Shown here: piece after piece, positions 25,466 to 38,954 of the stretch
How the letters are laid out: each line of letters begins with the position of its first letter
Position numbering within the stretch: the stretch's first letter is position 1
Source of the DNA: an uncultured Granulosicoccus sp.
GTDB taxonomy: Bacteria > Pseudomonadota > Gammaproteobacteria > Granulosicoccales > Granulosicoccaceae
NCBI GenBank assembly: GCA_937991945.1
Contig: CALKLO010000043.1
Span: 1 to 58,824, forward strand
Length of the DNA stretch: 58,824 nucleotides
Direction: 5' to 3'
Notes under the pieces: model-generated
What the model saw: the letters and a program-made list of their open reading frames with translations, nothing else
Databases searched by the model: none
What the model was told of the DNA's origin: nothing
Position numbers and translations under genes: made by a program

Positions 25466-26464
25466 TTAACGACAATACTCACCCGTTTTTAACACACCAG
25501 CATCAGTAACTGTGCGCGTCTCAAACGCGTAACAACCCTGCTCATCTGTTGGTGTATAGCGCATGTAATAAGCCTGACCACCGTAGGTGTAATCCATACT
25601 GCGCGCACCCGAAGCATCTTGAACAAAGACCAAGTCTTGAACACCACCTCTGGGTGGTCTTCCCGCCTTTTTCCCAGGCCCTGCGGCGGCTGGGGATAAC
25701 GGCCTTACTCGCGGTAGGCTGTCGAAATTTGCAACATCACCCATCAAGCACTGCACAATGTAAGGCGCTTCTTGGGAGGTATGGTAACGGTACCCAAAAG
25801 TATCGTCGGTCTGGCCATTGCAGACATCTAGAACACCAATAGCAATCGGCGTCCCATCAGGATTGTTGTCACCGTAGATGGGAAAGCCATCGAAGGCCCA
25901 GCCGATAATGGCAGCGTCGCCAGCGTTGGCCATTTTTTCGATCATGCACGTGGGTTTAACATGATAGTGGTAGTCATCCCCTCGTCCGGCATGACCACCA
26001 CAAACGTCAAGTTGCTGAGTCAGTAGTGTGTCGTGCCGAGCCTGATGATGGAAGAGATCTTGTTCAGACATCTCACCACCACCGGTGTAGTCATAGATAG
26101 GCACACCATTAACAGCCACACCCAGTGCTGCATCTCTTGTGAGTGGTGTTGACCCAAGAGTGGTGGTCAAAGGAACAGGCGCTGCGTAAACAGCAGGCAC
26201 AGGCACTTGTTCATTCGTACCAACGATACCTGTCATTAACTCGTGGTCTGGGTAAGTATCCGATGTGATCAATGCTTGTTTGGCTGAGCAAGTGACCGTC
26301 ACTTCATCACTAAAACCCGCCTCACTAACAGAGGCTGTGACTGCGGCACAATGTTCATTTTGATCGTGCGCCGATGCAGTCGTTGCTCCAATCATCATGG
26401 TAGCGACCACTAACACTGGCGTTCCCAGTGTCAGGCCAAGTATTCTGAAATTACGCAATGCCAC
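25466..26464 (-). CDS. YHYH-domain secreted protein
   Basis: A 332-aa exported protein. I place the start at GTG 26464 because GGGAG lies 8 bases upstream; a GTG three codons earlier is too close to it. A signal peptide (about 1-30, ending near GATTASA) precedes the mature chain. The defining YHYH motif lies within GDDYHYHVKPTC near the middle, followed by GWAFDGFPIYG, both diagnostic of the YHYH family. Several Cys and His residues suggest disulfides or metal binding, but the family has no established biochemical function. The second exported-protein gene lies 27 bp upstream on the same strand. Confidence 0.85.
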   Translation of the reverse strand: MALRNFRILGLTLGTPVLVVATMMIGATTASAHDQNEHCAAVTASVSEAGFSDEVTVTCSAKQALITSDTYPDHELMTGIVGTNEQVPVPAVYAAPVPLTTTLGSTPLTRDAALGVAVNGVPIYDYTGGGEMSEQDLFHHQARHDTLLTQQLDVCGGHAGRGDDYHYHVKPTCMIEKMANAGDAAIIGWAFDGFPIYGDNNPDGTPIAIGVLDVCNGQTDDTFGYRYHTSQEAPYIVQCLMGDVANFDSLPRVRPLSPAAAGPGKKAGRPPRGGVQDLVFVQDASGARSMDYTYGGQAYYMRYTPTDEQGCYAFETRTVTDAGVLKTGEYCR

Positions 26465-26491
26465 TATGTCCACTCCCTTTAGAACTACGAC

Positions 26492-27136
26492 CTATTCAAC
26501 AACCAATCGGCACAACATTGTATTGTCAGTCTCTAAGTCGCTGCCCCAAATCAACTGAGCGTTTGAGTCCCATGAGATACGGTCATAGCCATCTTTTGGG
26601 CGTACTGAACTTTCGCTGTGCTCGGTTGCCTGTGGCCACTCGGAAACATCGAAGTTAGCAGTATCCCAACCAGCAGGTTCGGCCGTTATATCAAACCCAC
26701 ATGCGCCTTCTCCAGCAATAGGATTGTCTTCTTTTGCGCAAGACTTACTAGATGGGGCTTGATGTACGGGTAAGCATTTCCAGTTGGCATCGGTTACCGC
26801 AACAATTTGCCCGCTGGCATCCTTGATTTGAACAATAACGCCACCATCGCCCATTTGCTGCTTGCGTGTGCCTATGTATTCAAGTCCAGTATCGTTTTCT
26901 TTGAAATCCTTAGCTGTCAGTCCAAGTACAAACGGAGGTTCCGCTGTGAACGAAAAGCTCTCAGCATTGAACGAGCGCTCTGTTGTGATGGACACACTGT
27001 CTTCAGCGACTTGCACGCCATTAACGTTTAGTGAAAACCAGTTATCAGCCCACACATCGGCTGTATAGGTTTCAGCTGAAGCCGCCTGTGCAAACAGACA
27101 AAGAGTCGAGCTAGCAAGGAAGGTAAATTTATTCAT
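26492..27136 (-). CDS. Secreted protein of unknown function, partner of the YHYH gene
   Basis: 214 aa with a clear Sec signal peptide (cleavage near AQAASA, about residue 21). The mature part has a beta-rich look. WFSLNVNGVQVAEDS near 32-46 resembles the carbohydrate-binding-like fold at the N-terminus of some rhamnosidases and laccase-associated proteins. Several Cys residues in the second half probably form disulfides. ATG 27136 follows a GAGAG ribosome site. It is probably cotranscribed with the YHYH gene. I cannot assign a specific function. Confidence 0.7.
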   Translation of the reverse strand: MNKFTFLASSTLCLFAQAASAETYTADVWADNWFSLNVNGVQVAEDSVSITTERSFNAESFSFTAEPPFVLGLTAKDFKENDTGLEYIGTRKQQMGDGGVIVQIKDASGQIVAVTDANWKCLPVHQAPSSKSCAKEDNPIAGEGACGFDITAEPAGWDTANFDVSEWPQATEHSESSVRPKDGYDRISWDSNAQLIWGSDLETDNTMLCRLVVE

Positions 27137-27303: not shown

Positions 27304-28587
27304 CTAAAAACGCACATTAAAGCCTGTGGGAAAACCTGACGAACGGACCGCATCAAATGCGCCTGCTTGGTTCAGCACAAGCAACGCGCCAGCGGCCAAT
27401 ATAAGCCCAGCCATAACTGCCAACGTGATTTTAACCACGCTATAGGGTCTCTCCCCTTGCACCTTACCTGTTCTACCATTCACCACAAAGCGATAGGTTT
27501 TTCCACGAAATTGGAATGCCGCTGTCCATAATGGCAACAGTACATGCTTAAACGTGGTGTCGCTATGGCGTGTTTGCAAAGACGTGACTCGCTGCTGATC
27601 ACCTCCAATGGCTCGCTTCACATCGGTACGTATAACCGTATCCATCGTTTCCTGCGCAATGTTGAAACCCTCATCAAGATTCACTTGATAAACCTCACTG
27701 CTAAAACCTGCCAGGTAGTCTTCCGTATACGGCACTAGATTTTCAAGGTCCCAAGGCGCCAGCCAGTCAGTTATTTTTCGTGGCAATGTTCGAGTGGCGC
27801 CCACCAGTACATCGTCGAAATGACGGGAAGTTCTGCCACTAGCAGGGTACCAACGCACCTTAGGTACTCGACGAGTCCGCGTAACTCGTCGACCGTTTAT
27901 TGTGGTCGTGTAGCGTTGCCTGACATAGTAAACCTCACCACGCTGACCTCGGTAAGCTGTTGCCGTATCGCTATCGTAGGTCCAATAAGGAATGTACACA
28001 CCGTTAAGGCCTTCATCACTTCGCGCGTATTTTTTTAACGCATTGGGTGCAAACCACCGCTTGTTCAACCAATGCTTGTACGCATCGAGAGCCACCTCAG
28101 AGGTGATGGCAAACGGCAGCAACCCTTTAGGCTTAAGCGGTTTAGATTGACTGGTTTCGGTAACGACAGACGTTCCACAAAATGGGCAGTCACCCGAATG
28201 TATGTGCGCGTCCATCGCAAATTGCGCTGCGCAATTTGGGCAGGCAATAATATTATTTACAGGCTCTACATGAGCAGAATCTTGTAACTGCCTAAGTGCC
28301 GAATGAAAATCTAACTCGCGGATACGCTCAGTACTATGAGCGATTGCATTTAGATGCCCGCAATAAGGACACTCTAATGATCGCGAACCAATCGCATAGT
28401 TTAATGAGGCACCACACTGAGCACACGGGAATCGCTTTTCTGTTAACGCTCGCGTAGTGGCCTCACCAATTTTGGGTGCATCGGATGTTTTTTCGGCCCA
28501 GTCGTAGGGAGAAACAGGCTCCGCACTGTTAGCCTGACCAGCCACACGCTCTTGCAACTGTGCTTGCAAACGATCACGCAGGCCCAT
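27304..28587 (-). CDS. Zinc-ribbon membrane protein (YdjG-like)
   Basis: 427 aa from ATG 28587; a 16-codon upstream extension is unlikely. Two TFIIB-type zinc ribbons lie in the first third: Cys55/Cys58 with Cys73/Cys76, and Cys116/Cys119 with Cys134/Cys137. A Trp/Tyr/Arg-rich middle region follows (YIPYWTYDSDTATAYRGQRG) and one C-terminal transmembrane helix lies at about 395-417. Such proteins are often mislabelled as PriA-related, but no helicase motif is present. In Bacillus subtilis a related zinc-ribbon membrane protein (YdjG) works with the SPFH protein YdjI and PspA in membrane stress. Here the neighbours are an SPFH protein, TelA and XpaC. Confidence 0.78.
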   Translation of the reverse strand: MGLRDRLQAQLQERVAGQANSAEPVSPYDWAEKTSDAPKIGEATTRALTEKRFPCAQCGASLNYAIGSRSLECPYCGHLNAIAHSTERIRELDFHSALRQLQDSAHVEPVNNIIACPNCAAQFAMDAHIHSGDCPFCGTSVVTETSQSKPLKPKGLLPFAITSEVALDAYKHWLNKRWFAPNALKKYARSDEGLNGVYIPYWTYDSDTATAYRGQRGEVYYVRQRYTTTINGRRVTRTRRVPKVRWYPASGRTSRHFDDVLVGATRTLPRKITDWLAPWDLENLVPYTEDYLAGFSSEVYQVNLDEGFNIAQETMDTVIRTDVKRAIGGDQQRVTSLQTRHSDTTFKHVLLPLWTAAFQFRGKTYRFVVNGRTGKVQGERPYSVVKITLAVMAGLILAAGALLVLNQAGAFDAVRSSGFPTGFNVRF

Positions 28588-28663
28588 GGTTTTTCTCTGA
28601 TCCGAATTTTTTATGAGTACTCCCCTGCACCGCATAGAGTGCAGTGGGTCAGTATTCGATTAA

Positions 28664-29773
28664 CTATGAGGATGGAACAGGAGGAGGCGTTGGAGCCGCA
28701 TCGCCCCATATACCCTCTAAGGAAGACACGGCACTGGCTGCTAGCCACTCGCTCATGCCCGGGCTCCACACAAGCGTATCGAAGCTCAGAGTACCCATGG
28801 CCACTTGCTTTTCTAACAAATCGACAGAGTATGGGCCGCGTGCCTCACCGTCGACGACCACGTGATAGACGCGCAGTTCCATTCCAGGTAATGGCGGCGG
28901 CGTTGCCGACTGACCTGCGCTGCTCATCTGATTGCTCATCTGGTTAGCCATCGCTAAACCGATACCCATGCCTACGCCATCTGATGCACCGCCACTCGGA
29001 TTGCTCGCAGCAGCTTCCATGGAAGCACCCGTTTGATATTGTAGGTATCGATCAAGGTTACCGGTCATACCCATACTGGTACGTTTATCCAATGCTTCAG
29101 ATACCTTTGGCGGTAATGAAATATTCTCAACCAATATGCGCGTCAGCTCTAGGCCGTACTCACCAAACTCTGGTGCTATGCGAGTGGTTAAAAATTCACC
29201 CAACTGGTCATAGTTAGCGGCCATATCGAGCACCGGAATATTCGAGCTACCAATAATGGTGGCAAAACGCGACGTGATTAAATTACGCAATTGCGAACTG
29301 ATTTCATCGGTTGTGAAAACACCTTCAGTTCCCACAATTTCTCTGATGAACATTAAGGCATCGGTGATTCTTACACCGTAAGTGCCAAAGGCTCGAATCC
29401 TTAAGCCGCCAAACTCACTGTCTCGAAGCATTAAGGGGTGTTTGGTGCCCCACTTCAAATCAGTAAAACGTCGGGCATTACAAAAATAGACTTCCGCTTT
29501 AAACGGACTTTGAAAGCCATGATGCCAATTCTGCAGTGTTGTCAAAACAGGCAGATTTTTTGTTTCTAGCTCATAAGTGCCGGGGCCGAGCACATCTGCC
29601 ACCACACCTTCATTAACAAACACGGCAAACTGCGATTCACGTACGACAAGCGTCGCACCGTATTTGATCTCGTTGCCATAACGCTCGAATCGGGACACCA
29701 TGGTATTGCTGGAATCATCGGTCCATTCGATGACATCAACAAACTCACTGAAGAATCTGCTAAACAGACCCAT
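28664..29773 (-). CDS. SPFH-domain protein with C-terminal GYF-like domain (YdjI-like)
   Basis: 369 aa. Residues about 1-250 form the SPFH/stomatin-like domain of the YdjI group (COG4260), often labelled virion core protein; the YGATLVVRESQFAVF opening is typical. A low-complexity Gly/Met/Ser linker (about 255-300) follows. The C-terminal domain (about 305-360) has the GYF_2 pattern (YHVVVDGEARGPYSVDLLEKQ and LVWSPGMSEW), replacing the zinc ribbon usual in this group. There is no transmembrane helix, so membrane contact is probably peripheral. The gene starts one base after the telA stop, so the two are coupled. Confidence 0.82.
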   Translation of the reverse strand: MGLFSRFFSEFVDVIEWTDDSSNTMVSRFERYGNEIKYGATLVVRESQFAVFVNEGVVADVLGPGTYELETKNLPVLTTLQNWHHGFQSPFKAEVYFCNARRFTDLKWGTKHPLMLRDSEFGGLRIRAFGTYGVRITDALMFIREIVGTEGVFTTDEISSQLRNLITSRFATIIGSSNIPVLDMAANYDQLGEFLTTRIAPEFGEYGLELTRILVENISLPPKVSEALDKRTSMGMTGNLDRYLQYQTGASMEAAASNPSGGASDGVGMGIGLAMANQMSNQMSSAGQSATPPPLPGMELRVYHVVVDGEARGPYSVDLLEKQVAMGTLSFDTLVWSPGMSEWLAASAVSSLEGIWGDAAPTPPPVPSS

Positions 29774-29774
29774 T

Positions 29775-30944
29775 TTAAACTCCCGCCGTTGGCGCTGATT
29801 GAGTTCGTGCAGAAGCCGCTTTCAATGTTTCTTTCAATTCAGCTTCCATAGACTCTAATTGCTTCTCGGCCTCAGCACGACGACGCTTGCCCTCGTCTGC
29901 AATTTGTAGGCTCTCTTCAACCGTTGCAATGAGATTCTCGTTAGCACGCTTTACCGCATTAACATCAAAAACGCCACGTTCTAATTCTTCTCTGACGGTT
30001 CTGTTAGCGGTGCGTAGGTTCTCTGAGTTTTTCTCTAACAACTCATTGGTTAAATCACTTGCAGCCTTAACACTCTTTGCAGCTTCTGCGGAGCGAAAAA
30101 TCGTGACTGCTTGAGCTAACTGCTGTCGCCACAAGGGAACCGTATTGACCAAGGTGGAGTTGATTTTGTTGACCAAGCCTTTGTCGTTTTCTTGAATAAG
30201 ACGAATGCTCGGTAAGCCCTGCATAGCCACTTGACGAGTTAAGCGCAAATCGTGAATACGACGCTCTAAATCATCACGACCACTGCGTAAATCTCTTAGC
30301 TCTTGAGCGAGTAATACGTCATCCTGGTTGTCCGCCTTAATTTCAGCCGCAGGAATCATCGTGTCATCGATGGCTTTGAGCTTTTGCTCACCGGCAACGA
30401 TGTAGGCCTCTAAATTATGGAAGTAATCAAGATTGGCGCTGTATAACTTATCGAGTGATTTTATGTCTCGTAGCAATAGTGTCTTATGTTTTTCTAGATC
30501 GTCAGTGACGGTATCAACCTGGCGTCTCACACCCTCATACTGCTGAATAAATTTAGCAACCGGTGTCAAACCGCCAAACAGACGTCGCAGCAAACGCGAG
30601 AAGAATCCAGGACGGTTGTTAGGATCAAAGTTCTCCACTTCAAAACCGCGCAACACACCAACCATATCGTTTAGTGATCGACCAGCAGAGCCTAAGTCTT
30701 TATTGCGTACACCTTCGAGCATATTGTCAGAGATAGCCGTAAGCTCTTGCTGAGCTTTGCTACCAAAAAATATAACCGAGTTGCTGTCAGTCAGATCAAT
30801 CTCACTCATGAGTCGATCTATGAGTTGACGCTCCGATACATCAGCCTGCTCATAAGGCACGATGTCATGCTTTAGATCAGGCAGTAGTTCGGTGCCAGGC
30901 AACACGTCAATTTTATCGGCAACATCTGTCTTCGATTCGGTCAT
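29775..30944 (-). CDS. TelA family protein (toxic anion resistance)
   Basis: A 389-aa, highly helical cytoplasmic protein of the TelA/YaaN family, named for tellurite-resistance plasmids. The family landmark FFSRLLRRLFGGLTPVAKFI lies at about 113-132, followed by a long coiled-coil-rich region and a conserved LVNTVPLWRQQLAQAV segment. The final 60 residues are Lys/Glu-rich coiled coil. No membrane helix. TelA genes commonly sit next to xpaC, as here. Biochemical activity is not established; roles in resistance to tellurite and cell-wall antimicrobials have been reported in Firmicutes. Confidence 0.88.
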   Translation of the reverse strand: MTESKTDVADKIDVLPGTELLPDLKHDIVPYEQADVSERQLIDRLMSEIDLTDSNSVIFFGSKAQQELTAISDNMLEGVRNKDLGSAGRSLNDMVGVLRGFEVENFDPNNRPGFFSRLLRRLFGGLTPVAKFIQQYEGVRRQVDTVTDDLEKHKTLLLRDIKSLDKLYSANLDYFHNLEAYIVAGEQKLKAIDDTMIPAAEIKADNQDDVLLAQELRDLRSGRDDLERRIHDLRLTRQVAMQGLPSIRLIQENDKGLVNKINSTLVNTVPLWRQQLAQAVTIFRSAEAAKSVKAASDLTNELLEKNSENLRTANRTVREELERGVFDVNAVKRANENLIATVEESLQIADEGKRRRAEAEKQLESMEAELKETLKAASARTQSAPTAGV

Positions 30945-31010
30945 GGAAATTTCCCTTCGTATAAATTTACGTTAGACGTCGCGCACATTATTTATGCACA
31001 CTAAACCGTG

Positions 31011-31859
31011 TTAGGTAACGCCTTCTTTTTCTAATTGCATCTGCAGGACTTCGATATTGACGTCCAGATCAGATAGGTTGTTTTCTTTGAGCTTCGTCTG
31101 TTGCTCAGCAATGACGGTTTCAATGGTGGTTAACACACGACGAAAATTATCTTCAAGCGCATGCGCCTCGCCTTCGGTGTGTGTCCTTGCATAGCCTTCC
31201 GTGACTTGCTGCGCACCGTCTAGGTAGACCTTCAAGAATTTGCGCGCTCGGCGAGCATCTACCGGGTCACTTTCAATCGTATCTAGAATGCCTCGCGCAT
31301 CTTTAACAATGCGGCGTAGACGATCCTTAAATTCAATATTATTGATTTGTCGGCTAGATTGCTCAATGCGTTCTAGGCGGCCTTCGGCCTCATCTAACAA
31401 CTCTATGAGTTCTTCGGTGGTGATACCTACTGCCGCAATGTCAGGATCTTTTCTGGCAGGGTCAAAATCGTAATACAAGTAACACCCCAACAAGGTGGCA
31501 CCGGCATACAAAATACTCTCGAACAGAGAATGCCTATCGCCTAAGCCTAACCAAGCGACAACAAACACTCCACCGGTTACCAAACCTGCGCCAATCATGC
31601 GGTACTGCACCGTGCTCGCCCGTCGTCTCAAACGACGCTTGCGTGCTTCGTTGTCCAAACGAATGCCTTTACGAATTAACGTGGCTGCGGAGACGATTAA
31701 TACAAACCCTGCCGCACGTGCTAGCGCCTCAATGGGCTCCTTATCTAGCAAAGATGAAAATATTGCCGGCAATAAAGGCAAAGCGAGAAAATACAACAGC
31801 AAACCACGCCATAGCACTTTGGGCTTAGTGTCAGAATTTATGCGGGTTACAGCAGCCAT
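31011..31859 (-). CDS. XpaC-like membrane protein
   Basis: A 282-aa protein of the XpaC family, historically named for 5-bromo-4-chloroindolyl phosphate hydrolysis in Bacillus, although enzymatic function is doubtful. Two hydrophobic pairs in the first half (about 18-58 and 87-125) anchor it in the membrane. The second half is a charged helical domain (LIELLDEAEGRLERIEQSS onward) like that of TelA partners. It lies 66 bp upstream of telA, matching the conserved xpaC-telA pair. No catalytic motif is visible. Confidence 0.82.
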   Translation of the reverse strand: MAAVTRINSDTKPKVLWRGLLLYFLALPLLPAIFSSLLDKEPIEALARAAGFVLIVSAATLIRKGIRLDNEARKRRLRRRASTVQYRMIGAGLVTGGVFVVAWLGLGDRHSLFESILYAGATLLGCYLYYDFDPARKDPDIAAVGITTEELIELLDEAEGRLERIEQSSRQINNIEFKDRLRRIVKDARGILDTIESDPVDARRARKFLKVYLDGAQQVTEGYARTHTEGEAHALEDNFRRVLTTIETVIAEQQTKLKENNLSDLDVNIEVLQMQLEKEGVT

Positions 31860-31861
31860 AA

Positions 31862-31948
31862 TTAAGTAAACAGGGCCTGACAGGAAACCATACCCACCGT
31901 TGCCAGCAGAATGAAAAATCCGATTACACGTTGTATTGGTTTAGGCAT
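31862..31948 (-). CDS. Possible 28-aa membrane peptide upstream of xpaC
   Basis: An ATG at 31948 opens a 28-codon frame ending two bases before the xpaC ATG. It has a basic N-terminus (MPKPIQRV), then a hydrophobic stretch over about 9-20 (IGFFILLATVGM), then VSCQALFT. It fills the gap between tpm and xpaC. There is no good ribosome site, and the cysteine context (MVSC) is a poor lipobox. The position hints at a leader or structural micropeptide, but the frame could be fortuitous. Confidence 0.3.
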   Translation of the reverse strand: MPKPIQRVIGFFILLATVGMVSCQALFT

Positions 31949-31962
31949 AAGACAATTATCAA

Positions 31963-32631
31963 TTAGTTACGCTTTAGGAGATATACCCGCTCATCGAGTG
32001 TTTCAAGCCCTCGTTTCGCAAGATTTCCCAGACGTTCTGCACCACTGTAGTGCTCTAGCGTGCAGATATCAAAGGCATTGCCCAGTAGTTTGCGAACGTT
32101 TTCATCTGTTACTGAATGCGGGGGGCCATTCATTAGGCTTTGATCGTAAGTAATAGTCAGTAGAAGCCCCGCAGAGGTGGCTTTCATCAGATTTGCTAAG
32201 TGTGAGCAATAATCAGCACGAAGCGCATCCGGCAGCGCAATCATGGCCGCCCTGTCAAAATACGCACCGCACTTTGCCACGTGCTCAGGGGATAAGCTAA
32301 AAAAGTCGCCTGCCCAAATATCTAAACCCGCAGCTGCTTTAATACCTTCAAAGACAGTAAAACCTGATTGTTCTTTAATCGAGTATTCCAACTCGTTGTC
32401 ACAAAAAAACGCCTCAGCAGCCTTCGCACTGAGCTCAACCCCCATAACAGGGTGTCCTTGCTCGTGCAGCCACAGCATATCCGTTGATTTACCGCACAAA
32501 GGCACAAAAACCGGCACCGGACCCGATAGCTCAAGTTTTGGCCAATACTGTACCAAACGGCTGTTGACGTTCTTCTGATGAAAACCAATTCGGTCTTCAG
32601 ACCAGGCCTTCTGCCAATATGCAGCTTCCAT
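31963..32631 (-). CDS. tpm: Thiopurine S-methyltransferase family protein
   Basis: A 222-aa SAM-dependent methyltransferase. The start MEAAYWQKAWSEDRIGFHQ is diagnostic of bacterial Tpm, followed by the SAM-binding segment VPLCGKSTDMLWLHEQGH and later WAGDFF and YFDRAAMIALP. Bacterial members methylate thiopurines and also selenium and tellurium species; in Pseudomonas syringae the gene was found as a tellurite-resistance determinant. It lies just upstream of xpaC-telA on the same strand, a suggestive pairing. Length and motifs are complete, so it should be active. Confidence 0.93.
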   Translation of the reverse strand: MEAAYWQKAWSEDRIGFHQKNVNSRLVQYWPKLELSGPVPVFVPLCGKSTDMLWLHEQGHPVMGVELSAKAAEAFFCDNELEYSIKEQSGFTVFEGIKAAAGLDIWAGDFFSLSPEHVAKCGAYFDRAAMIALPDALRADYCSHLANLMKATSAGLLLTITYDQSLMNGPPHSVTDENVRKLLGNAFDICTLEHYSGAERLGNLAKRGLETLDERVYLLKRN

Positions 32632-32673: not shown

Positions 32674-35600
32674 TTACAAATCTACACTAACCGATGGCTC
32701 CCATTCTCGCCAGCCCTTGAGCATGGGAAAATACAAACCTACTCGAATAGGCCGCTTTTCTATTTTGGACATAATATCAGCATAGCGATTGAGCTGATCG
32801 GAATAACGAGCCTGCTCAGCATCCAGGAATTTGTCGAGCTGGCCGCCACGGTGATCTCCCGTTTTAAAATCGACAATCCAGCGCGTGCCGTGCTCATCAA
32901 CGAACGTGCGATCAATAACCACTTTCTGCACGCCTTGGCTTGCACTACTGTCGTCACGCGGAACACTCAAGGCCCACTCTGACCGAGCCTCCTCATGAGG
33001 TGACAATATCCAATTTCCACGCTCATCATCCAAAGTGTTCTGAACACCCTGTAATACTCTTTCTAGCGCTGAGGCTATCTTATGAGACTGCACACCTAAG
33101 TTACGCAGTTGACGCGTAGCGATGGAACTCGCCCTATCGATATCAAAGTCGATAGACGCACCTGCCGCCGAACACGCGAGACGTTGCAACTGCAAATGCA
33201 CCACAGTTCCAATGTCTCGGGCCTCCCTACCCGCCCATGAAAATTCCACACCCTCATCAGTAGACGTATCGGGTGTTGCTTGTCTCTCCCACGTATAGGT
33301 GGACAACACAGGAAACTCAGCACTAAGAGGCAAACGCTCAAACTGCGCAACTGGCTGTTCAAGCTCAGACTCATCACCCAACAGTGATAACTGTTGGTCA
33401 GCTCCTGTGAGCGGATCTTGTGTGTCACTGGTGCGAGCGGCCGCGCCAGCCATAGCCTCAGCAGCATTTTTGAAATCTAATTCCAGCAGTGGCCAGAGCG
33501 GCTTAAGCAATGAAGAATTAATAGGTGTTTTTAATTCACCACTGGCGGCAATCGAACTACGCGCAACTAAATGAAGATGATGCTTTGCTCGTGTACAGGC
33601 CACATAGAGGAGACGCAATTTTTCTTGCGCGTCACATCGCTCGCGGGCTTTTCTGACTAAGCGATTTATTTTGTCTTTGGCACCGTACTGCAAACCCGAT
33701 TGCTCAAACGGCGCTAACAACAATTGCGGCTTACCGTCTAGTGTGCTTTCAAACCAATTAAGCAGTTGCGTGCTATCGGCACGTGTTTGTCTATCCAGCG
33801 CTGGCAGTATGACGGTATCAAATTCCAAACCCTTAGCTTTGTGCAAGGTCATGATTTGAATCTGACAATTGGCATCATCAGAATTCTCAGCGTACAGCGA
33901 CTTCATGACGTCAGTTAAAACACTTTTTTGCCACAACCTACCTTCAGCTTCAAGACTCAATAACCGACGGATAGCACGCTCGGCTGCATTCGCATCGATA
34001 TCATCACGACAAACTGCAGGGCCGCCGAGTTGCAACCAAATGGATTCAACCCACGGCATAAGACCACTGCGTGGAACTTGCTTTAATGCAGGCTCCACAA
34101 TGGTTAAGAAACGCTTAACGCGCACCTGACCATCTTGGGACAATGCTGCAAACCTATCAGCGTCTTTGAGTAATTCAATGACTGAGCGCGACTTAGCTTC
34201 GTTCATTAAGGCGTGTAAATCGTGCAACACCAGCCCCACAAACGGTGCGCGTAGTAAAGACAACCAATGCAATCGGTCGTGCGGATACCGCAGCGCCAAA
34301 CACAACGAGAGTATGTCTCTTACAACGGGCCGCTCACCCACCAAATCCATATCAATAGACTGATACGCTAAGCCATGCTCCCTTAAAGCTGCGAATATAT
34401 CTTTTGCCTGACTGCGCGCCCTAACCAATATGGCTACACGATGATTAGCATCAGAGGCGATTGCATCGCGAGCTAATATCGCTACATGCGTCGCTTCCGC
34501 TTCTTTATCGGCATCGATTAACGGGTGCACGACAACCGAACCTGTTGTCGTTAAATGTGCAGCAGATTCAGAGTACGGCACCGCACCGCTGTCAGGATCA
34601 GCACGCTCAGGAAAGATAGATGAAAAACTATCGTTAACCCAATCGATGACAGTGGGCGCTGCACGAAAATTTACACTCAACGTCAGTGATTCAAGATTCA
34701 CAGGACCAATACCAAAATCACGCGCCTGAGCAAACAAGGCTACGTCGCCTTCACGAAACCGGTAGATAGATTGCATGGGATCACCCACTGCAAAAAAGGT
34801 ACGTCCGTCGCCTTGATCCCACCCTCTGACTAATTGGCTAAACAAACGAAATTGGGTTTGGGAGGTATCCTGAAACTCATCAACCAATACATGCTTTAGC
34901 GATAGGTCCATAGACAGCGCTAAATCGGTAGGCGCATCCTCTGGCCCTAACGCCCACTGTGCACGTTCGGCTAGCTCTGCGAAATCGACAACGCCGCGCT
35001 CACTAAATAGTAACTGCAACTCCAGCAGTAAGTCTGGCAACGCACTGAGAAGCTCCGACAACAGTTCCCACTGTTCATCTTGATAACGAGGGTATGGCAA
35101 ACTGCATACTTCAACCAGCGCCTCTACAAAATCGGGGGCCTCTCGCACGGTTTCGAGAATACCCATCATCTCTTCCTTGTGTTGCTCTAACAAGGCAGGT
35201 TCGATACCACGCTTCTTTGCATCAGACTTTGCTGGAAAGCCTTCCTTCTTAGTCAGCCTGTTACGCACTTCAGGCTTCTTGGTCAGCAACGCCGCGGCAA
35301 TACTGTCCCACAAGTGTAAGTCATCAATTGACGCACCCGGCAAAGCCTCAATATCGAGCCACGCTTGCTTTTCAAATTCTATAGCGTCTAAGTCTCCTTC
35401 TTGGTCTTCCAGAAGAAAACCACAGGCAATTCTCAACCGAGCAGGTAGCGTGTCATCTAAGCCGAATGGAATGTACGAACATAAATTTTGCAGCCTGGAC
35501 TCGACAAGCTCTGCCAACATACCTTCCAAAATGTGTCGAAGCTGTTCGTGCTGATCGGAGGCGTAAACATGACGCTTCCATTGATCGCGATTTGCCAACA

Positions 35601-36156
35601 AGTTAGCCAACAACTGTTGAGCTAACTCAAGCTTATTGCCTAACTGCAACAACACTCGTTCAATCAACGGAATATTAGCGTCGATAAATCGCGTTGCCAC
35701 CTCTCGGTACAAACTACCTGCATCCTCTACAACACCTGTCGGTGCACCCAGTGCTGAGGTTACCGGCAAACGATGAGCAAGCTGAGTCGCTAACGCATCA
35801 ATGGTGCGAAGGTTAAGTCTCTGTGGGTTTCTAATTATCTGCCAGTCGCGTTCTTTGTCTTTATTTAATACCGCGGTAGCTAGTGCATGACCTTCAGCTT
35901 CGTAATCATTAGCAGGCTGCGCACCTGAAGCCACACGCTCTAAGGTTTCAACCACGCGCTGACGCATTTCGCTAGCAGCCTTACGCGTAAAGGTAATAGC
36001 CAGTATTTCTTCAGGCTCATCGACTGTTGCCAGAAGCGTTAATACACGACGCGTTAATAGCTCGGTTTTACCAGAGCCTGCAGGCGCTTGAACAATAAAC
36101 GATGTCTGCGCATCTAGCGCTCGCTCTCGTACTGCTGCATCAATAGGTGCGCTCAT
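32674..36156 (-). CDS. addA: AddA-type helicase-nuclease (double-strand break repair)
   Basis: 1160 aa. An SF1A (UvrD-like) helicase with a C-terminal RecB-family nuclease, which resects double-strand breaks for RecA loading. Walker A is APAGSGKT (Lys30). Further helicase motifs are VDEFQDTSQTQ, GDPMQSIYRFREGD, VNFRAA, IMTLHKAKGLEFD and LLYVACTRAKHHL. The nuclease motifs near residue 1085-1105 (IDRTFVDEHG and IVDFKTGD) retain the catalytic Asp and Asp-x-Lys, followed by a QLNRYAD helix. The ATG overlaps the addB stop by 4 bases. No recBCD gene is present in the window. Confidence 0.92.
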   Translation of the reverse strand: MSAPIDAAVRERALDAQTSFIVQAPAGSGKTELLTRRVLTLLATVDEPEEILAITFTRKAASEMRQRVVETLERVASGAQPANDYEAEGHALATAVLNKDKERDWQIIRNPQRLNLRTIDALATQLAHRLPVTSALGAPTGVVEDAGSLYREVATRFIDANIPLIERVLLQLGNKLELAQQLLANLLANRDQWKRHVYASDQHEQLRHILEGMLAELVESRLQNLCSYIPFGLDDTLPARLRIACGFLLEDQEGDLDAIEFEKQAWLDIEALPGASIDDLHLWDSIAAALLTKKPEVRNRLTKKEGFPAKSDAKKRGIEPALLEQHKEEMMGILETVREAPDFVEALVEVCSLPYPRYQDEQWELLSELLSALPDLLLELQLLFSERGVVDFAELAERAQWALGPEDAPTDLALSMDLSLKHVLVDEFQDTSQTQFRLFSQLVRGWDQGDGRTFFAVGDPMQSIYRFREGDVALFAQARDFGIGPVNLESLTLSVNFRAAPTVIDWVNDSFSSIFPERADPDSGAVPYSESAAHLTTTGSVVVHPLIDADKEAEATHVAILARDAIASDANHRVAILVRARSQAKDIFAALREHGLAYQSIDMDLVGERPVVRDILSLCLALRYPHDRLHWLSLLRAPFVGLVLHDLHALMNEAKSRSVIELLKDADRFAALSQDGQVRVKRFLTIVEPALKQVPRSGLMPWVESIWLQLGGPAVCRDDIDANAAERAIRRLLSLEAEGRLWQKSVLTDVMKSLYAENSDDANCQIQIMTLHKAKGLEFDTVILPALDRQTRADSTQLLNWFESTLDGKPQLLLAPFEQSGLQYGAKDKINRLVRKARERCDAQEKLRLLYVACTRAKHHLHLVARSSIAASGELKTPINSSLLKPLWPLLELDFKNAAEAMAGAAARTSDTQDPLTGADQQLSLLGDESELEQPVAQFERLPLSAEFPVLSTYTWERQATPDTSTDEGVEFSWAGREARDIGTVVHLQLQRLACSAAGASIDFDIDRASSIATRQLRNLGVQSHKIASALERVLQGVQNTLDDERGNWILSPHEEARSEWALSVPRDDSSASQGVQKVVIDRTFVDEHGTRWIVDFKTGDHRGGQLDKFLDAEQARYSDQLNRYADIMSKIEKRPIRVGLYFPMLKGWREWEPSVSVDL

Positions 36157-38954
36157 TGTGCAGCTCCGTTGCTTGCAGCAGCAGGTGACGCTGATGAGCC
36201 ATCGTCATCATCATCGACAGCGGTTAGTTGCTCATCACCGACACGGCATAACGATTTTAACTCACAATGCGTGCAGGCTTTATCCATTGGCGTCACCGAT
36301 GCCAAACCTTGCCTGACCTCACCTGCAACGGTATCTAGTGCCTCTTTCCAATGCAGACGCCAGTCATCCCAGGTTTCCAGCTCTCTGTCGGTTGCCTGAC
36401 CATTGCGAGATTTGATGACTGTCGTTTTTACTTTCGGAATCATGTCCGACTCACTAGCGACACCAATAAATTTACATTGGTTACGCGCCACCTGCGCAAA
36501 GCTTGCGCCTTTTATCGCCTCGTTGGTCAACACATACAAAGGCAACTGAGGATTAACAATGCGTTTATCTGCCCACGTATTCACTTTGCTCGATGTACCG
36601 GTTTTGTAGTCAACGACCACTAAGTCATCGCCAATTTTATCAATGCGATCAAGCATCACATTCATGATGACACCACCGTGTTCGATTTCTTGGCTGAGCT
36701 CCAGACTTTGCACTTCAAAGTCTGGCCGAATGGATTCTTGACCCATCAACCATTCAGTGAGCAAACCTAGTAACCGTGTTCGCTCAAGATCTTGCAATGC
36801 TCCCGGCACACCCATCTCTTCAATTGCAACATTGATTACCTCTAACAACGCCTCATTTAACTCATCCTCGCTAAGCGCAACGAGTTGCGAATGCGTACTA
36901 ATGCGTTGCCAAAAAAGCTCCAATGCATGATGCAACAACGTGCCATGTTGACGTGGATCTAAGCCTAAGCCGGCTTCTTCCAACGGGCGAATGGCCAGCC
37001 TATGCAATGCAAACGATTTGAAAGGACACAAGGCCTGATTTTCGAACAAGCGCGCACCGCCCTTGGCAATTGTCCCTGCCGGCAGAGCCGGGCCATAGTT
37101 GTCCTGAATACATTCAAGCTGTAAATGCGCCCTGAGAGCTGCAACTGGATTTACGAACGCCTCATACTCACCCAGCCTATCAATACGGGGTGCAGCCTTG
37201 GTTTGATTGTCATCACTTGCAACTACCGCCGGTAGATGCGCAGCGTCCAATTCTTTTCCATCTCGGGCAAGCGCTCTACTGGCTAACAACAACGGTGCTT
37301 GCGAGCTCCAGCGTAAGAATTCCTGCTCGGCTAATTGCAAACGCGCACTGGCAGAAGCATCAGGAACACCCGCTTCTTTTTGCTGAGCAATCGGTAAAAA
37401 TGGCGATGGCGATCCTGTTGGCGGCCACTGCTCAGTATCAAGACCTGTCACCCACAAGCATTCGAATGAAATGCCATGACTCTCCAAACGCCCCATAATT
37501 TGAATAGGCGTTGCGGGAGTCTCTAATTGAAAAACTCGTTCACGCGCTAAGCGTGATAACAGACGAAATGCACTTTGTGCATCCACACCTACATTGTCAT
37601 CTAACAGTTGCAAGTCATCCAAACATTCCACCCACGCGCTCACAGCTTGATACTCTTCGGTATCAATGCCCTTACCTGGCCAACCAAACGTAGTCAACCA
37701 TTGGCTGAAGCGACTTGCCCACGTGGATAACGTAGCCTTAGTAAACTTACGTTGAGTGAGTAATTTATTAACCGGCTTGGCAAGTGACCCTCGCCCATCC
37801 AATTGGACCGCTAGCTCCTCTAAACTCAACTTACGAACACGCAACTCTCTTAACCGTTTATCCAATTGCTCTTTGGCATGTGCATCGCTTGGACGACCCG
37901 ACATATACGGACTCAGTAATAGAGACGATATCTCATTACCTTGGATTCCAGCAGTCGATAGCCTGAGAATAGATAACGCCGCTTGAACCGGTGCCGTATC
38001 AGATAAGGGCAAACCGATTGATAAATCGTAAGGCCTGCCTTTATCGCGAATTTGCGTTGGTGATAATCCTGGGAAAAATACTTGATCAAAAGCCCTTAAT
38101 ACTTCTGCACGTCTATTTTGCAAGTCTGGCACTACCAAACCTAAACTCTGTGCAGCATCACGCTCCAGCTCACAGCGCATATGAGTTGCTACACCAATCA
38201 ATTCCCGAGCGTCGTCTTCGTATGCCACATCGTGAACAAGTGCACAGGCGTTGGCCTCCAACACCTCAACCTTAACGCCTCGCATTTGAAGCGCTGCAAC
38301 GATGGCTTTTAGCTGAGGTGGCAATTGTAGAAACCCATCTAAAATGATGTGATCAGGAAGTGCACTACCGCCCGCGCCACCACCTAAACTTGCTACCTCA
38401 TCAGCACCCACACCCGCACTTGCACCCGCACTTGCACCCGCACCTTCCCCAGCGACAACTCCCGCCATCAAGATGTCCCGCAGATGATCCGCTAGTGAAG
38501 CTTCATCGATACAACCTTGCTCATCAAGCTTTGATTGATAGCTTGCCTGCCATCGTTTCCAGGTGTATTGATCCAACGGTAAGTAGTCGTCATCAGCGGG
38601 GTGGCAATCCCATGCACAGGCAATGTCCCATGCTCGCTTAGCGGAACGACACGCCGCCTCAGAATCCAGTAAAGCAACGGCATCATCGTTATCAATGCAT
38701 TGCTGCCATAGACGCTGCTGCAGCAAATCAGGCAGGAGTGTTTTCTCGGACTCACCCGTGGCGAGATAGTGCGCGTGCAATGCCAACAACCAAGAGCGAA
38801 AAGGCAGGATCTCTGGGGTTTCCCACCACAAAGCCCCTTGCGCCTGCTGCCATTGTTGAAATTGCACGGAGCGGTGCCTGGCTAATCGCTGATTAACCGT
38901 GAGCAAAACAGAGCCGTTTACTACTTGCTCACAAAATCCAGTCACGTCGTCCAT
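36153..38954 (-). CDS. addB: AddB-like PD-(D/E)XK nuclease subunit
   Basis: A 933-aa partner of AddA, of the divergent beta/gammaproteobacterial type. The N-terminus (LLTVNQRLARHR) has no Walker A GKT, so the helicase half is probably inactive and serves Chi scanning. Near residue 640 an isolated Cys (ALCPFKSFALHRLA) and near 896-904 three more (CTHCELKSLC) form the predicted 4Fe-4S cage. The nuclease motifs are GTLLHHALELFW, MLDRID and VVVDYKTG. A Gly/Ala/Ser-rich insert at about 165-202 carries a short tandem repeat. Translation of addA is coupled through the ATGA overlap. Confidence 0.88.
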   Translation of the reverse strand: MDDVTGFCEQVVNGSVLLTVNQRLARHRSVQFQQWQQAQGALWWETPEILPFRSWLLALHAHYLATGESEKTLLPDLLQQRLWQQCIDNDDAVALLDSEAACRSAKRAWDIACAWDCHPADDDYLPLDQYTWKRWQASYQSKLDEQGCIDEASLADHLRDILMAGVVAGEGAGASAGASAGVGADEVASLGGGAGGSALPDHIILDGFLQLPPQLKAIVAALQMRGVKVEVLEANACALVHDVAYEDDARELIGVATHMRCELERDAAQSLGLVVPDLQNRRAEVLRAFDQVFFPGLSPTQIRDKGRPYDLSIGLPLSDTAPVQAALSILRLSTAGIQGNEISSLLLSPYMSGRPSDAHAKEQLDKRLRELRVRKLSLEELAVQLDGRGSLAKPVNKLLTQRKFTKATLSTWASRFSQWLTTFGWPGKGIDTEEYQAVSAWVECLDDLQLLDDNVGVDAQSAFRLLSRLARERVFQLETPATPIQIMGRLESHGISFECLWVTGLDTEQWPPTGSPSPFLPIAQQKEAGVPDASASARLQLAEQEFLRWSSQAPLLLASRALARDGKELDAAHLPAVVASDDNQTKAAPRIDRLGEYEAFVNPVAALRAHLQLECIQDNYGPALPAGTIAKGGARLFENQALCPFKSFALHRLAIRPLEEAGLGLDPRQHGTLLHHALELFWQRISTHSQLVALSEDELNEALLEVINVAIEEMGVPGALQDLERTRLLGLLTEWLMGQESIRPDFEVQSLELSQEIEHGGVIMNVMLDRIDKIGDDLVVVDYKTGTSSKVNTWADKRIVNPQLPLYVLTNEAIKGASFAQVARNQCKFIGVASESDMIPKVKTTVIKSRNGQATDRELETWDDWRLHWKEALDTVAGEVRQGLASVTPMDKACTHCELKSLCRVGDEQLTAVDDDDDGSSASPAAASNGAAQ
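38407..38442 (-). repeat. 12-bp tandem repeat inside addB
   Basis: The 12-base unit CTTGCACCCGCA occurs twice at 38419-38442, preceded by a diverged copy at 38407-38418. It keeps frame and encodes GASA units within a low-complexity Gly/Ala linker, so slippage would change linker length without a frameshift. Confidence 0.75.

Follow-up and report, generated by a model that had tools for sequence, protein, structure and literature searches.

A conserved XpaC-TelA-SPFH-zinc-ribbon operon with an upstream microprotein gene in Granulosicoccus, a probable envelope-stress module

Introduction

Sigma-W dependence is listed for both the pspA-ydjGHI and the xpaC-yaaN transcript of Bacillus subtilis (PMC3498285), in which the presence of PspA at the membrane requires the SPFH protein YdjI, with YdjG and YdjH needed for both (PMC8581546). 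Links to envelope stress have also been published for xpaC-telA pairs of other Bacillota: in Listeria, a bacteriocin is reported to cause mild induction of the XpaC and TelA genes (log2 0.63 and 0.61), and loss of telA by mutation to raise sensitivity 4-fold for nisin and 2-fold for tellurite (PMC12791056, citing Collins 2010), whilst the transcriptome table of a paper on CesSR and membrane-protein overproduction in L. lactis gives ratios of 10.3 and 3.44 for an xpaC-like gene and telA1 (PMC3139573). Here we describe an operon encoding XpaC, TelA, an SPFH-GYF protein and a zinc-ribbon membrane protein, preceded by a microprotein gene, in an uncultured Granulosicoccus sp. (GenBank assembly GCA_937991945.1). 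It lies on contig CALKLO010000043.1 (C43), of which we analysed positions 1 to 58,824, a stretch of 58,824 nucleotides (nt) referred to throughout as the window; the assembly comprises 3.8 Mb and is 97% complete. To our knowledge, TelA is widespread and has no agreed function. Amongst open-licence PubMed Central (PMC) papers we found none joining TelA, XpaC and SPFH; the matches for TelA with XpaC mostly concerned xeroderma and cancer, and none of the matches listed describes this operon or the microprotein in its title or the start of its abstract.

Results

Relatives of the window SPFH protein were collected by scanning genome contigs with that protein. The best 80 of 110 were kept, so that the set is weighted towards near relatives, and the closest of them come from Granulosicoccus genomes. 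Near the SPFH gene, TelA and the zinc-ribbon gene were each found in 75/80 loci and XpaC in 72/80; of the eight loci lacking XpaC, three are at contig ends (L020, L038 and L041), and the other five have neither TelA nor XpaC (L034, L040, L047, L063 and L067). All 68 loci that hold the four genes carry them on one strand, and the median gaps are of operon type: 49 nt between XpaC and TelA (72 loci), 3 nt between TelA and SPFH (75 loci) and 23 nt between SPFH and the zinc ribbon. The same association was observed in an evenly drawn sample of 184 gammaproteobacterial genomes (class sample), 12 of which encode a full-length SPFH protein (Band_7_1, over 300 bits), with TelA and XpaC adjacent in 12/12 by coordinate comparison; this count leaves out 37 genomes with weak matches (<29 bits) and G179, whose divergent SPFH protein scores 133 bits and has no TelA. 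In a sample of 397 genomes across the phylum (phylum sample; SPFH called at E <= 1e-20, PspA at E <= 1e-8), 62 carry an SPFH gene, and coordinate comparison places TelA at most 3 kb away in 36 of these. XpaC, TelA, SPFH-GYF and the zinc-ribbon protein are thus encoded by a real conserved operon, beyond chance association.

The original prediction, made from the window alone, had grouped these four genes and tpm into one module of five. All five genes lie on the minus strand (Table 1) and belong to the families then named, as judged by Pfam and TIGR03840 models and, for the zinc-ribbon protein, by invariant cysteines and hydropathy; a single base does separate the stop of telA from the start of the SPFH gene. 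The neighbourhood counts above bear out the grouping of TelA, XpaC and the zinc ribbon with SPFH. It does not extend to Tpm, as shown further below.

Alignment of the gap between tpm and xpaC across the window and 11 relatives revealed wobble-type variation, and an open reading frame (ORF) of 28 codons lies there, which the first reading overlooked because it falls under the usual ORF cut-offs. Amongst 14 close homologues, the variable columns at the three codon positions number 14, 1 and 25 of 27, and the ratio of non-synonymous to synonymous polymorphism (pN/pS) is 0.163, indicating purifying selection. In a wider set of 38 aligned sequences, the pattern of a hydrophobic helix is kept at a mean column identity of 36%. 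A profile of the microprotein matches 62 of 70 xpaC loci (69 loci with 150 nt or more of sequence ahead of XpaC, plus the window), and L013, in which the XpaC start had been placed too early, also has it, giving 63/70; no match was found in L025, L046, L060, L061, L073, L074 and L076. When the 6,723 small ORFs on the operon strand of these 70 loci were scanned, every match adjoined xpaC.

In wider samples, too, the microprotein co-occurs with XpaC. Across 54 whole genomes it was found (E <= 0.002) in 15 of the 17 gammaproteobacterial genomes with XpaC-TelA, always directly upstream of XpaC, and in none of the other 37, which comprise five with Rhodobacter-type operons, four with SPFH and no TelA, four with TelA only, G179, and 23 without TelA. 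Matches at other places were limited to three weaker ones (G132, G022 and G002; E 0.02 to 0.06), which look like chance. In the class sample it is present at 11/12 SPFH operons and at 4/6 XpaC-TelA pairs lacking SPFH, the match in G161 being at its SPFH-less copy. Among nine fetched XpaC-TelA loci without a standard SPFH gene, it precedes XpaC in three (L153, L154 and L160) and gave no match in six (L155, L156, L161, L163, L169 and L170); fetched loci without XpaC gave none. Library searches returned no Pfam match up to E 1, no PDB match, and a single NCBIfam match far under the cut-off (E 0.25). The microprotein gene is therefore a new gene whose family was found in no library searched, and is the most novel part of the module. 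We also considered a lipoprotein, since a cysteine follows the helix in some homologues; it does so in 23/38 aligned sequences, and this reading is therefore not general.

A small ORF so placed could instead tune xpaC expression as a leader peptide, or through translational coupling, and not itself yield a working protein; at many loci only a few nt do separate its end from the start of xpaC. We consider this unlikely: the retained helix pattern and low pN/pS described above speak against it, and at some loci a gap of 40-85 nt separates the ORF from xpaC, too wide for simple coupling.

Rhodobacter-type operons also have a small ORF encoding a single helix at this place, in 20 of the 23 loci where XpaC was found (25 looked at), with distances taken leniently to the nearest possible xpaC start; four of these ORFs are 67-69 codons long. 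Their within-group pN/pS is 0.44, near saturation. The gammaproteobacterial model finds no match in five Rhodobacter-type whole genomes, and kinship between the alphaproteobacterial ORFs (compared without L087) and the gammaproteobacterial family is not established, because most of them score within the range of shuffled peptides. In the two Rhodobacter-type operons read, a DUF2927 gene lies between TelA and SPFH (L083:5891-6919; L171:4679-5644). The operon and microprotein were also seen in metagenome bins named Helicobacteraceae and Sulfurimonadaceae (L031 and L051), which we attribute to transfer or misbinning because the contigs are short and have a guanine-cytosine content of 46-48%; in L031, TelA is split over two ORFs. 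Isolates with the operon and the microprotein include Methylobacter luteus (L045) and Methylomonas sp. SURF-2 (L069).

Of the 72 XpaC loci, 62 extend 1.2 kb or more upstream of XpaC, and Tpm precedes XpaC in 19 of these 62; 17 of the 19 are Granulosicoccus or Granulosicoccaceae records (the others being L024 and L029). A UvrD-like gene is also present at 15 of these 19 loci, and L014-L016 keep the UvrD-like gene and lack Tpm. We therefore rule out Tpm as a conserved member and regard it as a lineage-limited neighbour; in the window it is probably co-transcribed with the operon, yet stands outside the conserved module. An operon for resistance to metalloids or toxic anions, in which TelA, XpaC and Tpm act jointly on tellurite or selenite and SPFH and the zinc ribbon only give membrane support, would fit the naming of TelA after tellurite resistance, the score of Tpm above the cut-off of the selenium/tellurium methyltransferase model TIGR03840 (TMPT_Se_Te), its 14-nt distance from the next gene, and the tellurite sensitivity reported for the Listeria telA mutant (PMC12791056). 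We nevertheless hold it to be quite improbable, as XpaC is not preceded by Tpm in 43/62 loci, the effect reported in Listeria is larger on nisin than on tellurite (PMC12791056), and the regulation published for xpaC-telA in the cited sources is that of envelope stress (PMC3498285, PMC3139573).

The SPFH-zinc ribbon pair has a wider distribution than TelA-XpaC linkage. Vibrio, Tsukamurella and Comamonas plasmid records hold a TelA-less SPFH gene with an adjoining zinc-ribbon homologue, and such a homologue was found at 11 of 18 fetched genome stretches in which SPFH is unlinked to TelA (L120-L136 and L138; L135 is cut by a contig end), five of the matches being weak (E 6e-6 to 1e-4). Among the seven stretches without a match to the zinc-ribbon profile, L138 has a TFIIB-type zinc-ribbon neighbour, and L125 and L128 have a DUF4178 neighbour, that of L128 with a weak zinc-ribbon match. 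The original prediction named as grounds for its refutation that complex prediction and expression show the SPFH-zinc ribbon pair to be independent of TelA-XpaC; this holds in part, the pair proving separable in that it also occurs without TelA. SPFH and the zinc ribbon thus look like a wider core whose partners can be exchanged, and in the lineage of the window that partner is TelA-XpaC. This view draws on the zinc ribbons beside TelA-less SPFH genes, on a contig with PspA in the partner position (L173), and on the DUF350/DUF4178 set of L128.

Several single loci illustrate this range. In L128 (840-6590), an SPFH gene of the same family stands beside DUF350, spermidine synthase and DUF4178 protein genes, and in L125 (6380-7054) one stands beside a DUF4178 protein gene. 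A short gut contig filed as phage (L173; MT839532) has PspA directly before SPFH and reads like a Bacillota chromosome; an Enterococcus contig also filed as phage (L174; OR846590) looks like bacterial chromosome and has an SPFH-zinc ribbon pair. In L155 (5510-8314), from a 2 Mb gammaproteobacterium, XpaC-TelA is followed by a very divergent SPFH-GYF gene (GYF_2 8.8e-10; Band_7_1 0.0027, under the cut-off), and a small hydrophobic ORF of its own lies near the xpaC start.

Table 1 Genes of the operon and adjoining tpm in the window
Gene	Position	Strand	Features
tpm	31963..32631	-	Pfam TPMT 1.8e-63; 14 nt before microprotein gene
microprotein gene	31862..31948	-	28 codons + stop; one hydrophobic helix, basic N-terminus; starts 14 nt after tpm stop; stop 2 nt before xpaC ATG
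xpaC	31011..31859	-	PF10112 (XpaC/Halogen_Hydrol) 3.8e-27; three hydrophobic N-terminal segments (hydropathy)
telA	29775..30944	-	PF05816, 5e-111; no hydrophobic helix (hydropathy)
SPFH-GYF gene	28664..29773	-	PF13421 Band_7_1 1.6e-96 (residues 26-235); C-terminal GYF_2 4.2e-14 (303-352); YdjI type
zinc-ribbon membrane protein gene	27304..28587	-	two ribbons of four cysteines each; beta domain with long strands; tail anchor at C-terminus

The zinc-ribbon protein falls below every Pfam cut-off. Its eight ribbon cysteines are invariant across 50 aligned sequences, and hydropathy gives it a single hydrophobic helix, at the C-terminus; the SPFH protein and Tpm have none. By comparison with relatives such as L003, translation more likely starts at the ATG at 28587 than at 28635. 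An AlphaFold2 (AF2) model of this protein (predicted local distance difference test, pLDDT, 86.6) contains strands of about 30-36 residues (195-230, 233-263 and 331-360) at very high confidence, which is odd for a tail-anchored protein. Against PDB folds it gave no match at E <= 0.001 (best Z 3.4), and homology to secretins or pore proteins was set aside, as the template-modelling (TM) scores of those rows were very low. Sequence searches of solved structures with TelA, the zinc-ribbon protein and SPFH returned nothing credible for the first two, and for SPFH a best match of 0.002 located in the GYF part. Amongst PADLOC defence proteins, SPFH, TelA and XpaC had no match up to E 1, and those of the zinc-ribbon protein (2.8e-4 at best) and of Tpm (0.0042) were only weak.

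A promoter scan gave 5 sites against 7.7 expected, and Rfam had no match within the window. The zinc-ribbon gene is followed downstream on its strand by genes for two further proteins (25466-27136), one with a YHYH domain and one that matches rhamnosidase-N weakly. The stretch directly upstream of tpm (32674-38954) encodes two PDDEXK proteins, the first of them also a UvrD-like helicase, a pair that we take to be AddAB-like by its arrangement. The UvrD-like gene lies near the operon in 18/80 loci, all Granulosicoccaceae-like except L024.

Discussion

Taken together, this analysis suggests that the microprotein, XpaC, TelA, SPFH-GYF and zinc-ribbon protein probably constitute a five-gene envelope-stress module. 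In the mechanism we propose, the SPFH protein would join the tail-anchored zinc-ribbon protein in an inner-membrane platform, like that of YdjI with YdjG/YdjH in B. subtilis. Upon membrane damage or depolarisation this platform would recruit TelA, a long helical protein encoded directly before SPFH, which would then coat or brace the damaged membrane. XpaC may act as an integral-membrane receptor or regulator of TelA, and the closely spaced microprotein may be a small subunit of XpaC.

Several observations weigh against this proposal. In the phylum sample, 26 of the 62 SPFH genomes have no linked TelA; 34 of the 36 TelA-linked genomes come from one family, and in 31 of those 34 the TelA and SPFH matches lie about 1 kb or more apart. 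Conversely, TelA is above its cut-off in 21/184 genomes of the class sample, against 12/184 for SPFH, so that TelA also occurs without SPFH, and XpaC-TelA was found without SPFH at six class-sample loci. The two halves can therefore work apart. The AF2 model of TelA is only moderately confident and its structural matches are ordinary for helical bundles. Microprotein-XpaC-TelA and SPFH-zinc ribbon could instead be stress cassettes independent of each other, sharing a transcript because the same stress calls for both, without physical contact. Either half is also found alone, and the B. subtilis counterparts are listed as separate transcription units in one regulon (PMC3498285). We hold this two-cassette explanation to be rather unlikely: the 3-nt median between TelA and SPFH and the adjacency in all 12 class-sample operons suggest coupling at the level of assembly, short of proof.

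That no PspA is seen at the locus, as first reported, holds for the whole assembly, in which neither PspA nor PspC gave a match; nor was a PspA gene found in the SPFH/TelA loci scanned, many of which are stretches of only 3.6 kb. The mutual exclusion of PspA and the TelA operon expected by the original prediction fails: PspA occurs, unlinked and on other contigs, in 7/12 operon genomes and in 31/172 others of the class sample, and in the phylum sample in 13/36 genomes with linked TelA and SPFH and in 149/361 others. TelA is therefore no genome-level substitute for PspA, and the idea that it takes the place of PspA stands only for position, TelA preceding SPFH as PspA does in L173. Nor is TelA a detectable PspA relative, with a profile comparison probability of 0.5%. 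XpaC likewise has no profile similarity to PspA, and TelA and XpaC none to each other. The AF2 model of TelA (pLDDT 76) is an all-helical long bundle with very long helices, and its fold matches (Z 9 to 14), amongst which are ClyA-type, BAR, vinculin and further helical proteins, are in a range common among helical bundles and may reflect only a common helical arrangement. A Foldseek search gave no match at E <= 0.001 and no PspA or Vipp1 among the matches listed, which excludes nothing.

A bolder extension of the five-gene proposal is a PspA-independent membrane-repair machine, in which a ring of SPFH and zinc-ribbon protein would load TelA, a long helical protein unrelated to ESCRT-III, onto damaged membrane, under the control of XpaC and of a transmembrane sensor peptide, 28 residues long and from a previously undescribed family; SPFH rings would then be general loading platforms whose membrane-coating partners can be interchanged. 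We regard this as doubtful. The conserved coupling of TelA to an SPFH/zinc-ribbon platform does offer a direct hypothesis, that of a membrane-stress effector loaded by SPFH, with a defined set of partners. The microprotein is sharply specific and, as a small membrane peptide, naturally suggests itself as a candidate sensor or subunit of a complex. If PspA, TelA and DUF350/DUF4178 partners do alternate on one SPFH core, the protection of bacterial membranes would prove to be modular in design.

Of the known systems, the first for comparison is B. subtilis pspA-ydjGHI, which likewise combines a YdjI-type SPFH protein, a zinc-ribbon membrane protein and a coiled-coil partner in one operon, and whose SPFH protein is also matched by the PF13421 model. 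The zinc-ribbon protein is encoded beside SPFH here, and a homologue follows SPFH in the Enterococcus contig. Where PspA stands in the B. subtilis operon, the present one has TelA, XpaC and the microprotein; no PspA was found in locus or genome, and the gene order is unlike pspA-ydjG-ydjH-ydjI. With the xpaC-yaaN (xpaC-telA) pairs of B. subtilis, Listeria and Lactococcus, the operon shares the order XpaC then TelA, and the published links of those pairs are to envelope stress; it differs in being joined to SPFH-zinc ribbon and preceded by the microprotein.

The TelA-type tellurite-resistance proteins of conjugative plasmids are of the same family, yet distant in sequence from the window TelA, with identities of 24-29% in 18/20 listed rows (non-Pseudorhodobacter, at least 78% query coverage, from a spread sample of 609 records). 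The one such plasmid region read (L089) carries no annotation of an SPFH or zinc-ribbon product, and profiles find TelA only. Finally, the SPFH protein of the SPFH-DUF350-spermidine synthase-DUF4178 clusters is of the same family and has a zinc-ribbon/DUF4178 partner (in L128; DUF4178 in L125). Unlike the present operon, these clusters have no TelA or XpaC nearby, and so present different partners on the same SPFH core. The operon of the window may be seen as a new variant of an SPFH-centred envelope-stress theme.

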